This document shows, in pieces, positions 20,777 through 24,416 of a stretch of DNA of 24,416 nt. The notes beneath the pieces were generated by a model. That model had not been told where the DNA came from. It worked only from the letters and a program-made list of their open reading frames with translations, and ran no database searches. This DNA is from a virus: IMG/VR virus record IMGVR_UViG_3300042879_005586, positions 1 to 24,416 of that record. One strand, 5' to 3'. Position 1 is the first letter of the stretch. Each line of letters opens with the position of its first letter. The position numbers and the translations under genes are program-made.

Positions 20777-22270
20777 ATGCTAATTGATTTTCAATATTTA
20801 ACAAACTCCAAAAGATTAGTCATCAGTTATGTTGATGATACTGGTGAAATCAAATTGAAATATTTTGAATGGGATAATCCCTTGAAGTATGTAATATGTT
20901 CAGATGACGACCCACAAAGACATAAAGTATATAAATCTTGGGATGGTAAATCTGTAAAATTAGAAGCTGTTTCAAATCCTGACAGATACACAGTTTATGA
21001 ATTCTTAGATGCCTTACCAGAGAAGGAAAAGAATGAAATATTTGAATATCACACACCCAAGATATATTTTGTTGATATTGAAACTGAAATAGTTGATGGT
21101 TTCCCAGATGCTGAAACAGCTCCAACAAAAGTTTTATCTATATCTATAGTTTTTGAAGATAAGATTATTCTCCTTGGACTCAGAGATATGCCAGAAGATA
21201 TGCAATTGAGAATCAAGGATAATACTAATAAGTATTTCAAAAAGTTCAATGCTGACTATAAATTCAAATACATTAAATATGATGATGAATTTGATATGAT
21301 GTATAACTTCTTTTACAAAATGATTCCAAAAATGCCAATGATTACAGGTTGGAATTTTGTAAACTATGACTGGTTATACTTAGTAACAAGAGCTCGTAAA
21401 CTAAAAAAAGTTGTTAATGGTAAAGAATATACTATTGATCCAGCTGTTTCATCCTTAACAAAAAGATTGAATAAGGTGTGGATGACAAACTATGAAATGC
21501 CTGCTCATAGAATGATTTTTGATTACATGCAACTTTATGAAGTTTGTGATACTTCTATTAAAGTAAAAGAATCTTCATCACTGGATTTTGTGTCTAGTAA
21601 GTTAGTTGGTGTTGAAAAGATTAAATATACTGGTTCCCTTCAAAAATTATATGAAGATGATTTTGAGACCTTTATGTATTATAACGCAGTTGACTCCGTC
21701 CTAGTACAAAAGATTCATGAATCTAGAAACTATATTTCAATCATATATGCTATTTCATCTTTGGCTAGAATAAGAATTGTTGATGTTGTTTCTCAAATGA
21801 ATAATGCTCTTGCATCACTAGCTATCACAGAGGGTGTATTGAGAAATAGATTTAGGGAACAAGAAAATATAGTTCTTTTTAAAGGTGAGAAGAATACTGA
21901 GGAAAATGTTGGTATTGCTGGTGGTTGGGTTAAGGATCCAGTCCAAGGTATGAACCAATGGTGCGTGACTTACGATTTTGCTAGTTTGTACCCAACAAGT
22001 CAAATTCAATGGTATATTGCTCCAGAGAACTTTATAGGTGTTCAAGATCCAAAGAATCCAGAATACTGTGATAATGGTATGAAGATTGATAAGGAAAATA
22101 ATGTTATTTGTGTTAATGGTGTGGTATTCAGGAAAAGAAATTCACCAACAATTCAGATGTTGAAAGATGTTTATGCTGATAGGAAGAAGAATAAGAAGAT
22201 TATGATGAATAAGAAGGAAGAACTTAAAAAAGTTATGGATGAAATTAAAGCTTTGGAATCGGAACTTTAA
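20777..22270 (+). CDS. 43: Family B DNA polymerase, N-terminal part (exonuclease and motif A); split
   Basis: 497 residues, versus 898 for T4 gp43. The proofreading exonuclease is intact: YFVDIETE (Asp100, Glu102), GWNFVNYDW (Asp198) and YYNAVDSVL (Asp306). Polymerase motif A follows in TYDFASLYPTSQIQW (Asp400). The protein then stops in the fingers, after ADRKKNKKIMMNKKEELKK, before motif B (K-x3-NSLYG) and motif C (YGDTDS), so it cannot polymerise alone. The C-terminal half is not in this window. Some T4-like phages of Aeromonas encode gp43 as two peptides split in the fingers; this may be another case. The gene is followed directly by a minus-strand HAD gene overlapping its last 4 nt. Confidence 0.88.
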   Translation: MLIDFQYLTNSKRLVISYVDDTGEIKLKYFEWDNPLKYVICSDDDPQRHKVYKSWDGKSVKLEAVSNPDRYTVYEFLDALPEKEKNEIFEYHTPKIYFVDIETEIVDGFPDAETAPTKVLSISIVFEDKIILLGLRDMPEDMQLRIKDNTNKYFKKFNADYKFKYIKYDDEFDMMYNFFYKMIPKMPMITGWNFVNYDWLYLVTRARKLKKVVNGKEYTIDPAVSSLTKRLNKVWMTNYEMPAHRMIFDYMQLYEVCDTSIKVKESSSLDFVSSKLVGVEKIKYTGSLQKLYEDDFETFMYYNAVDSVLVQKIHESRNYISIIYAISSLARIRIVDVVSQMNNALASLAITEGVLRNRFREQENIVLFKGEKNTEENVGIAGGWVKDPVQGMNQWCVTYDFASLYPTSQIQWYIAPENFIGVQDPKNPEYCDNGMKIDKENNVICVNGVVFRKRNSPTIQMLKDVYADRKKNKKIMMNKKEELKKVMDEIKALESEL

Positions 22271-22926
22271 TGAACCCTTATACCTTCAAATTCTATTTCT
22301 GGTAATTCTTTTCTTACTTCTAAAACTACCTTTTTAACCCATTTTGGTTTATCATCATAGAACTTAGCTTTTTTGAAACCAGTATCTTTTAAGAGTTGAA
22401 CTATAGTTTTAGCTTTCCATTCAGCGACTCTATCTGTTTTATCATCTTTTGAAGGATAACAAAATAAACCAAGATTAGGTAATTCTAACCCAAACTTTAG
22501 TAATGATTCTTTTACTTTTTCTTCTAAGTCAACCATTCGTCCAGTTACAATTGCTTTGTTCTGAACTTTTTTATACATCTCAGAGAGTTCTTTTACTTTT
22601 GTGGGTAAAGATATATCTAAGAAATGATAAACATTTGGAGTGACCATATAAAGTCTCAAACCTTTCCTAACCCAATTTCCTTTTGGCTCTACGGTTTGGT
22701 TTGGATCTTCTATATAAATCCTACCATTTTCTATTCTAAGATCTGATTTACTCCTATTAACAAAGTGTAAAGATTTTTTAATTAGGTCACTAATACTTTG
22801 ATTTTCAGTAAGATATTCAATAGCTAACTCTTCAAAACTTGGTGATTCTACAAGCGTTTGGTCTAAATCGAAAATATAAAGTGTTTCATCATTTTGAAAG
22901 TTTTCAAAGAATTTTAAATATTTCAT
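22267..22926 (-). CDS. HAD-superfamily phosphatase (polynucleotide-kinase-phosphatase / Swiss-army-knife type)
   Basis: 219 residues. Catalytic motif I is IFDLDQTLV (Asp20, Asp22). Motif II lies in KAIVTGRMV, and motif IV in AKFYDDKPKW. Spacing fits the HAD_SAK group often linked to RNA repair, and the phosphatase of T4 Pnk, which removes 3'-phosphates. A 5'-kinase domain is absent. The N-terminus MKYLKFFENFQNDE resembles the head-targeting-like peptides of neighbouring genes. It lies on the opposite strand, exactly where the split polymerase ends, and faces a helicase across a short divergent region. Confidence 0.75.
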   Translation of the reverse strand: MKYLKFFENFQNDETLYIFDLDQTLVESPSFEELAIEYLTENQSISDLIKKSLHFVNRSKSDLRIENGRIYIEDPNQTVEPKGNWVRKGLRLYMVTPNVYHFLDISLPTKVKELSEMYKKVQNKAIVTGRMVDLEEKVKESLLKFGLELPNLGLFCYPSKDDKTDRVAEWKAKTIVQLLKDTGFKKAKFYDDKPKWVKKVVLEVRKELPEIEFEGIRVH

Positions 22927-22974: not shown

Positions 22975-24416
22975 ATGTCATTGAAGAAAGATCTAATAAA
23001 ATATACCCCGAGACCAGAGCAACAAGAAGCTCTTGACTTCATCATTAACACTAAAAAAGAAAAACCTGACACCAAGTTTTTCCTAATGGACTTACCCATG
23101 GGTGTTGGTAAGTCCCACATTTCTTTAATGATTTCTGATTGGTATAGTAAAAAGATAGACCAGACTGCTAAGATTGATATTATAACTGCTGGTAAAATCC
23201 TACAAGACCAATATGATACTACTTATGAATCAATAAAAAATCTAAAAGGAAAAGAAAATTATTCTTGTAAGTCCTATTCTACTTCTTGTTCACAGGGTAA
23301 AGAATTCAATAGATTAAACAAAACTACTTGTGATCTTTGTCCTTATGATGAAGCTAAAAATGGATATCTTGGTGGTAAAGTTAGTTTAACAAATTTCTAT
23401 TTTTATCTAATCTATGCTATTTATAATAAGAAGATGATGGAACAAAGGGAATCAAGTGTTTTAATTGTTGATGAATGTCATGAACTTGATGATGTTGTTT
23501 CTGATTTTATTTCTATTAAAATAACAGAGACACTTGTAAAGAGATTAAAATTTACAAATGAGTATGAAATAATAAAAGCTTTATCTAAAGTTAAGAGTAT
23601 TTCAGAATATGTAAGTTTTCTTAGATATTTCCAAAATGAGATATTACAAACAATATCTACCATAGACGCTTCTATGATTAGTGGTAGAGATATAACATCA
23701 GATAAGAGGGATTTGAAAATAAGTAAACTTACTGGTACTGTTAACACTGATGTTAAAATGATGCAAATCATTTCTGACCTAAAACAATATCAAATCAAGA
23801 TTGAAGTTTTTCTAAAGGAATATGATGCTAATCCACATAACTGGGTATTGGAATCAAACTATAATGAAAAGTCAAAGCAAAAAGAATTATCCCTTGAACC
23901 TATTTGGGCAGCTGATTATTTGGATCAATATGTGTGGTCCAATTATGATTTAGTAATATTGATGTCTGGTACTATACTCGATAAAAATCTTTTTTCAGAA
24001 TTGAATGGATTAGATGCTGATAAGACTGCATATTATTCTACAAGTTCGCCTTTCCCATTAGAGAATAGAAAAATATTCTATATGCCACTTGGTAAGATGT
24101 CATTTCAGAAAAAAGAGGAAACATTCAAAAATTATATACCTTATTTTCACAAGATTCTAAAGAAGTATGAGGGCTTAAAGGGAATAGTACACACAAACTC
24201 TTTTGAGTTATCATACTGGATAAAAAGGGATATTGAAAATTCAAGACTATTATTTCATACAAATATTGATAGGGATGATAAACTACGAGAACATATGGAA
24301 AGTAAAGACCCACTGGTATTTGTAAGTCCGTCTGTTGGTACTGGTGTGTCTTTTGACCATGAAAAAAGTAGATTTCAGATAATCGCAAAAATACCTTATC
24401 CAAGTCTAGCTTCGCA
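22975..24416 (+). CDS. DinG/XPD-like superfamily 2 helicase with iron-sulfur cysteines (cut by right edge)
   Basis: The frame is open from the ATG at 22975 to the right edge (480 codons). Visible motifs: Walker A in DLPMGVGKS (about 39-47), four Cys at 98, 105, 119 and 122 as in the Fe-S domain of DinG and XPD, Walker B DECHELDD (166-172), SGTIL (motif III-like), VHTNSFE, and SPSVGTGVSFD with IIAKIPYPSL, which match motifs V and VI. This family unwinds DNA 5'-3' from overhangs and resolves R-loops or damage. The C-terminus is missing, but the last motif is near the usual end. Minus-strand frames inside it are shadows. Confidence 0.85.
   Translation, partial: MSLKKDLIKYTPRPEQQEALDFIINTKKEKPDTKFFLMDLPMGVGKSHISLMISDWYSKKIDQTAKIDIITAGKILQDQYDTTYESIKNLKGKENYSCKSYSTSCSQGKEFNRLNKTTCDLCPYDEAKNGYLGGKVSLTNFYFYLIYAIYNKKMMEQRESSVLIVDECHELDDVVSDFISIKITETLVKRLKFTNEYEIIKALSKVKSISEYVSFLRYFQNEILQTISTIDASMISGRDITSDKRDLKISKLTGTVNTDVKMMQIISDLKQYQIKIEVFLKEYDANPHNWVLESNYNEKSKQKELSLEPIWAADYLDQYVWSNYDLVILMSGTILDKNLFSELNGLDADKTAYYSTSSPFPLENRKIFYMPLGKMSFQKKEETFKNYIPYFHKILKKYEGLKGIVHTNSFELSYWIKRDIENSRLLFHTNIDRDDKLREHMESKDPLVFVSPSVGTGVSFDHEKSRFQIIAKIPYPSLAS

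Follow-up and report, generated by a model that had tools for sequence, protein, structure and literature searches.

The window analyzed here is a whole virus record of 24,416 bases (G000). It carries the gene for the N-terminal half (N-half) of a DNA polymerase of family B, a convergent gene on the opposite strand, and a helicase-like gene that runs off the record (Table 1). The N-half takes in the exonuclease motifs, motif A, and a long charged helix before its frame closes with TAA. DIETE, GWNFVNYDW, and YNAVDS correspond to exonuclease motifs. Two Pfam families match the N-half: PF03104 (exonuclease domain of family B polymerases) at E 1.8e-12, and PF00136 (DNA_pol_B) with its first part only (profile positions 21–150 of 453). 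Both of its PHROGs matches are DNA polymerase families. An AlphaFold2 model places a helix at residues 457–496, although the model is weak (mean pLDDT 62.9). The convergent gene, presumably HAD-like from its DLDQT motif, has no Pfam match at E 0.001. Its stop (TTA, 22267–22269) overlaps the TAA of the N-half by two bases, and because the two stops overlap (22267–22270) the end of the N-half gene looks natural. A profile of polymerase back halves finds none in the 24,416-base record. The sequence-only reading had described an exonuclease and motif A followed by a natural stop before motifs B and C, with an opposite-strand gene and then a helicase behind the break, and the locus bears out this description.

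Table 1. Features of the polymerase N-half locus in the window
Feature	Position	Strand	Basis
N-terminal subunit of a putative two-piece family B DNA polymerase, 497 aa	20777..22270, stop included	+	RB69 gp43 profile match, phrog_2062, phrog_262
Exonuclease motif DIETE, residues 100-104	21074..21088	+	Translation; D100, I101, E102 invariant (15 sequences)
Exonuclease motif GWNFVNYDW, residues 191-199	21347..21373	+	G191, W192, N193, D198, W199 invariant (15 sequences)
Exonuclease motif YNAVDS, residues 302-307	21680..21697	+	Y302, D306 invariant (15 sequences)
Polymerase motif A DFASLYP, residues 400-406	21974..21994	+	Translation, relatives' alignment
First fingers helix with charged tail; protein ends at fingers tip	22145..22267	+	AlphaFold2 helix 457-496; RB69 gp43 alignment to residue 503
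Natural stop TAA, overlaps the stop of the convergent gene	22268..22270	+	Sequence
Convergent gene past the break, 219 aa, DLDQT motif	22267..22926	-	Sequence
Helicase-like gene, runs off the record	22975..24416	+	Pfam ResIII and DEAD_2 matches

Relatives of the N-half, collected with tblastn and a scan of viral contigs, range from 100% down to about 27% identity. In 51/51 of them (44 viral contigs and seven phage records, two of the 51 being cut at the 5′ end), the reading frame closes at this same position, before any motif B or C, and the stop codon at the break is TAA in 38, TGA in seven, and TAG in six. The sequence past the stop varies among them, and no motif B or C pattern is found downstream of it in six frames and up to 3 kb (four relatives had less than 3 kb). 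Contig L002, which comes from another sample, carries the N-half gene at 100% identity. The group includes the 634–735 kb uncultured phages LR756502, LR745206, LR756504, and LR756501 as well as Lak phages and the Chryseobacterium phage MA9V-2. A two-gene layout is annotated in Sphingomonas phage PAU (gp105/gp110), Tenacibaculum phage pT24 (gp165/gp168), and PTm5, and it is also present in MA9V-2 and Vibrio phage V6Aob. In contrast, cyanophage S-WAM1 has one single, fused polymerase gene of 2,400 bases. In the accessible part of PMC7162821, the clade name Mahaphage includes the Lak phages, and five genomes above 634 kb are predicted to replicate in Bacteroidetes.

The missing half is found in the relatives as a separate gene. 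A search of 45 records (the 44 relative IMG/VR records and the window) with PF00136 and then with a C-half profile gives a separate C-half gene in 10 of the 44 relatives; the other 34 are linear and possibly incomplete. Among the phage records, the gene is found in 11/11 with a split N-half, the twelfth being the fused S-WAM1. C-half genes carry NGSYG-like and DTDS motifs, the C-terminal subunit being taken to comprise the second fingers helix, KLVLNGSYG as motif B, YADTDS as motif C, and the thumb. In the window's clade, the C-halves open with Met followed by a charged helix and have no additional domain there; the AlphaFold2 model of one of them has a helix at residues 3–38 but is also weak (mean pLDDT 51.8). 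N- and C-half genes often lie on opposite strands, and 41–281 kb separate them in 13 related records. The distance is roughly 41–171 kb in nine contigs (G023, G040, G021, G008, G028, G006, G001, G005, and G004), ∼75 kb in G038, where the C-half is a truncated copy at the contig end, and ∼101 kb, 132 kb, and 281 kb in LR745206, LR756502, and LR756504, respectively. The halves are 618 kb apart along the linear record of LR756501 and ∼1–15 kb apart in the more distantly related LR756500, Lak-B5, MA9V-2, PTm5, PAU, pT24, and V6Aob. The sequence-only reading had inferred that the second half must be encoded further away and had proposed a search for a motif B/C protein without an exonuclease. Such proteins are what the relatives encode, while the window's own C-half would lie outside the 24-kb record.

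The break falls where known split polymerases break. A profile of 15 N-halves aligns to residues 108–503 of RB69 gp43 (E 8.6e-57; PDB chain 1clq, which is taken to be this protein), and the C-half profile match starts near residue 546, after the charged N-terminal helix. In the Aeromonas phage 44RR, 43A/43B is annotated as a split gene with the break at the same place. The N-half fits this class in having an exonuclease and motif A, no motif B or C, and a break at the tip of the fingers as in 43A/43B. The 43A and 43B proteins of phage 25 co-purify and are active, according to the available part of PMC2988022, and together with the 44RR break this agrees with the earlier statement that gp43 split in the fingers works as two subunits in some T4-like phages. 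The layout of an exonuclease/motif A gene plus a motif B/C gene is shared with 44RR and phage 25. However, the 44RR genes are neighbors about 50 nt apart, whereas tens to hundreds of kilobases separate them in the window's clade, whose members are huge or jumbo phages of other lineages. A split DNA polymerase III alpha is said to have been described by Iyer and colleagues in 2021. It occurs in the same phage group (group 2.2 jumbo phages) and likewise has distantly encoded pieces, but it is a family C enzyme, whereas the enzyme here belongs to family B; the available passages of PMC7824862 contain no split family B enzyme.

By analogy, the N-half would supply the N-terminal domain, the 3′-5′ exonuclease, palm motif A, and the first fingers helix of the replicative polymerase. 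The two polypeptides would join noncovalently through the two fingers helices, as in gp43A/gp43B, and the C-terminal subunit of the window's phage would be a separate gene elsewhere in its genome. Assembly of the subunits and their activity are inferred and have not been shown at the bench. A split intein that joins the halves into one continuous polymerase chain is scarcely credible, although the annotation of PTm5 ORF-237 describes a split polymerase precursor that contains an intein and the C-half frames of Lak-B5 and LR756500 run into intein-like sequence after DTDS. The inteins of those relatives sit at motif C, not at the fingers break, and at that break a split intein is ruled out by the lack of an extra domain both at the N-half end, which is a charged helix, and at the C-half start. 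The sequence-only reading had named an assembly error at 22270 as grounds for refutation; an assembly or sequencing error there, or a decayed pseudogene of a really continuous gene, has nothing in its favor beyond the short length and metagenomic origin of the record, and its chance is virtually nil, as it is ruled out by the end point common to 51/51 relatives with all three stops and differing downstream sequences, the identical L002 contig, and the separate partner genes. At the level of sequence, the split, its conservation, and the separate partner gene in relatives are established, and the split extends across a broad range of huge and jumbo phages that includes many phages of Bacteroidota.

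In LR756500 (L060) and Lak-B5 (L064), the C-half frame passes from motif C into intein-like sequence (e.g., TGDHS near the end), and the Lak polymerase seems to combine the fingers split with an intein at motif C. A second, longer interruption is present at motif C, near C-half residue 115, in L188 (3773–4873), L194 (3767–4876), L191–L193, and L232. In L188 and L194 the two parts are separated by an ORF of about 366 aa, which in L188 matches phrog_22677 (unknown function).

Some C-halves match the profile in two pieces around residues 34–43. The interruption is a short insert of a stop plus a hairpin beside motif B, and it is present in 35/55 readable C-half loci (25 distinct gap sequences) and absent in 20 (16 representative loci). 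L183 and L189, which are cut before the insertion region, were left out. The base set holds 24 distinct gap sequences, and the totals of 25 and 16 add L226 (with the gap) and L237 (without it), neither of which has an endonuclease gene that could be found. Statistics were performed on 24 representative gap loci, in which L173 and L177 share one gap and were both kept and L192 was collapsed into L191, and on a comparison set of 15 representative uninterrupted genes. The nearest relative in which a C-half is seen, G005 (N-half 89% identical), has a gap at Tyr42 in its partner gene.

The gaps are 36–48 nt long (38 in L226) and fall into all three classes modulo 3, with the product frames restored. 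Take-off and landing codons, as defined by homology, are synonymous in 18/25 distinct gaps (∼1.4 of 24 expected by chance), namely at Ala33 (GCT to GCA or GCT, three gaps), Leu34 (CTT or CTG to CTA, 12 gaps), Val37 (GTT to GTA or GTT, two gaps), and Ser41 (TCT to TCA, one gap). At the Tyr42 site, they are not synonymous in any of the seven distinct gaps. An in-frame stop directly follows the take-off codon in four of the 25 and comes one codon later in 19, so that most gaps have one sense codon between take-off and stop; it is missing in L240 and L179. All 25 gaps contain a hairpin, with predicted energies of −16.8 to −31.4 kcal/mol for 24 of them and compensatory changes at nearly every stem position. 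The loops are UUCG in L239 and L138 and GAAA in L179 and L227. Divergence by codon position (third-position excess) is similar before and after the gap and to that of uninterrupted genes. The 25 distinct gaps meet the definition of a noncoding gap in a conserved frame that is otherwise under purifying selection.

A scan of 2.29 Mb, overlapping loci included, gives 29 stop-hairpin sites, of which 23 lie in the partner gene and six are terminator-like; the window, scanned within the same set, has none. In two phage records scanned over 464,605 and 239,000 bases, every site other than the partner-gene gap was terminator-like or a repeat, and a scan with the C-half L070 as query returned only L070 itself. 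A terminator is rejected as the nature of the element: the gap hairpins lack a T-run and lie inside the frame, and real terminators show separately in the scans. A group I intron or other known RNA is likewise rejected, as nine gap loci had no Rfam family match at gathering scores.

Just upstream of the take-off site, the coding sequence folds into a stem-loop; at each of the sites in use, its 3′ arm stops 0–4 nt short of the take-off codon's last base. Scored against synonymous-codon shuffles, its mean z is −3.83 in the 24 insert genes versus −0.16 in the 15 uninterrupted ones (p 6.6e-7). Insert genes fall below z −2.4 in 22/24 cases, the exceptions being L170 (+0.48) and L179 (−1.62), and L226 (−6.75) raises this to 23/25; none of the 15 uninterrupted genes falls below −2.1. 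The upstream stem-loop of T4 gene 60 did not stand out in the same codon-shuffle test (z about −0.2), which is thus without a working positive control. A Ser12 codon and a GAGTC motif (C-half codons 11–13) accompany about 20/24 insert genes and 0/15 genes without the insert. For gaps of the Leu34 class, pairing between the 3′ linker and the upstream GAGTC is better for matched combinations than for swapped ones (p 0.0015), whereas no such difference is seen when the Val37, Ser41, and Tyr42 classes are pooled (p 0.62). Linker pairing accounts for part of the Ser12/GAGTC association, and for the Leu34 class alone; an endonuclease site, co-conversion, or a signal in the nascent peptide is possible as well. 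The gaps of L170 and L179 have neither an endonuclease gene nor a significant upstream stem-loop. In L170 a 16-bp hairpin pairs the stop codon, and in L179 the in-frame stop is lost; these gaps may be decaying elements or represent another mode.

A gene that matches DUF7487 in Pfam and two homing endonuclease families in PHROGs lies just upstream of the insert-bearing C-half on the opposite strand. It is found at 15/25 representative insert loci and at 0/16 without the insert (Fisher p 9e-5 for 24 versus 15), a test that ignores kinship. On independent tree pairs, the association runs in the same direction 4.6 times on average and never in the opposite one over nine pairs (median p 0.06). The insert state changes at least 9–11 times on a tree of 39 C-halves, in which four rows cover under half of the columns, and near-identical C-half genes differ in insert state. 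L169 is a natural empty site compared with the occupied L170 and L171, with downstream flanks 93–95% identical; the gap at this type of site splits a Tyr codon (TA|CGGA). L177 and L179 have identical C-parts from residue 43 on, with gaps at different codons. Within the window's own clade, the homing endonuclease gene on the other strand and the 36–48 nt stop-hairpin gap probably form a small cassette that repeatedly targets the partner gene.

Translation of the gap-bearing partner genes most likely depends on programmed bypassing that resembles the T4 gene 60 case. The ribosome would leave the message at a codon next to the stop and resume on a synonymous one past the hairpin, and such skipping has not been observed. 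The arrangement of the gap elements is established from the sequence, while it is an inference that ribosomes bypass the gap and that the same happens in the window's own phage.

Three other explanations compete with bypassing. An excision of the gap from the mRNA, by a very small intron or by endonuclease-ligase splicing without a ribosome jump, is unlikely and is not excluded. It would accommodate gap lengths in all three classes modulo 3 with the frames restored, and the co-variation of the Leu34 linker with the upstream motif could bring the edges together; yet it requires neither the codon-phased synonymous edges nor a stop beside the take-off codon, which is within one codon in 23/25 gaps, and the nine loci compared with Rfam give it no support. 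Similarly doubtful is a reading of the synonymous codons as a mere scar of insertion, in the form of a target-site duplication. Most gaps are indeed flanked by two or three repeated bases, and the Tyr42 class with its split codon shows no match. However, the repeats are in codon phase at four residues and are retained even where gaps have diverged, and they are accompanied by a stop, a hairpin, and an upstream stem-loop that all move with the site. It is very unlikely that the gap-bearing genes are broken or that re-initiation after the stop yields a third separate piece, even though a stop codon ends the first 33–42 codons and the G-rich stem sequence could serve as a ribosome-binding site. 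The resumed frame at Tyr42 starts with GGA GCA and has no start codon, and a restart at TTG38 in the Leu34 class would lose Lys35, which is presumed to be catalytic. No second C-half copy was found in the gap-bearing records searched, and the third-position excess does not differ between the stretches before and after the gap, nor from that of genes without one.

Bypassing remains the preferred reading of the gaps. Mobile cassettes of an endonuclease and a stop-hairpin probably invade the motif B region repeatedly, so that the polymerase would be made only if the host ribosome bypasses the gap; the hosts of the cassette-bearing phages are probably Bacteroidota. Taken as a whole, the observations are very probably best explained by a two-subunit polymerase whose C-half gene lies elsewhere in the genome and whose partner gene, in relatives, is targeted by cassettes and most likely bypassed.

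The gap of T4 gene 60 starts with TAG CC UUCG GG in the T4 record. Together with mobA, it reportedly forms one mobile cassette (Bonocora 2011). As far as the available text goes, such a cassette is supported by PMC5009743, and the gap is described as 50 nt long, placed after codon 46 between matched GGA codons, with a UAG stop and with both a take-off hairpin and a 5′ stem-loop; the homing endonuclease gene mobA lies nearby, and gene 60 itself split off from gene 39 (PMC5009743, PMC11194080, PMC3014915). The huge-phage gaps resemble this layout. They lie early in the gene (codons 33–42), with a stop after take-off, matched codons, a C-rich take-off hairpin (with a UUCG loop in T4 and in two huge-phage elements), an upstream stem-loop, and an HNH-type endonuclease nearby. 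Unlike the T4 gap, which lies in a topoisomerase gene, they lie in a polymerase gene, are shorter, and occur as many distinct sequences at five codon positions; one sense codon usually precedes the stop, the Tyr42 landing is unmatched, the hairpins are far stronger, and experimental data on skipping are lacking. Membership in the gene 60 type is not settled, because the stop usually lies one codon further, the Tyr42 landing is unmatched, and skipping has not been observed. The byp elements in the mitochondria of Magnusiomyces capitatus are also many short inserts, some without perfectly matched codons (PMC5009743, available part), but they are mitochondrial and number 81 instances in that genome, whereas the huge-phage gaps are in one gene only. 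The same part of that source mentions a 29-nt hop once reported in an adhesin gene of Prevotella, of the phylum Bacteroidota. The literature searched, which excluded closed-access papers and was in part available only as excerpts, gave no report of a hairpin gap or of bypassing in the polymerase genes of huge phages.

Family B polymerases made in two pieces are known from a handful of T4-like phages, where the genes are neighbors, and here they would characterize one whole branch of huge phages, in which far-apart polymerase halves must find each other. Gene callers will break or truncate the gap-bearing partner genes. Bypassing has so far been a near-solitary curiosity of T4 gene 60; if the proposed reading is true, these phages hold dozens of natural sites of the gene 60 type, compared with one well-studied phage site. 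The 25 distinct gaps, the empty site, the varied codons, and the matching stem-loops open the rules of bypassing, its evolution, and its tie to the endonuclease to direct testing, both in an essential gene and with the ribosomes of other hosts.
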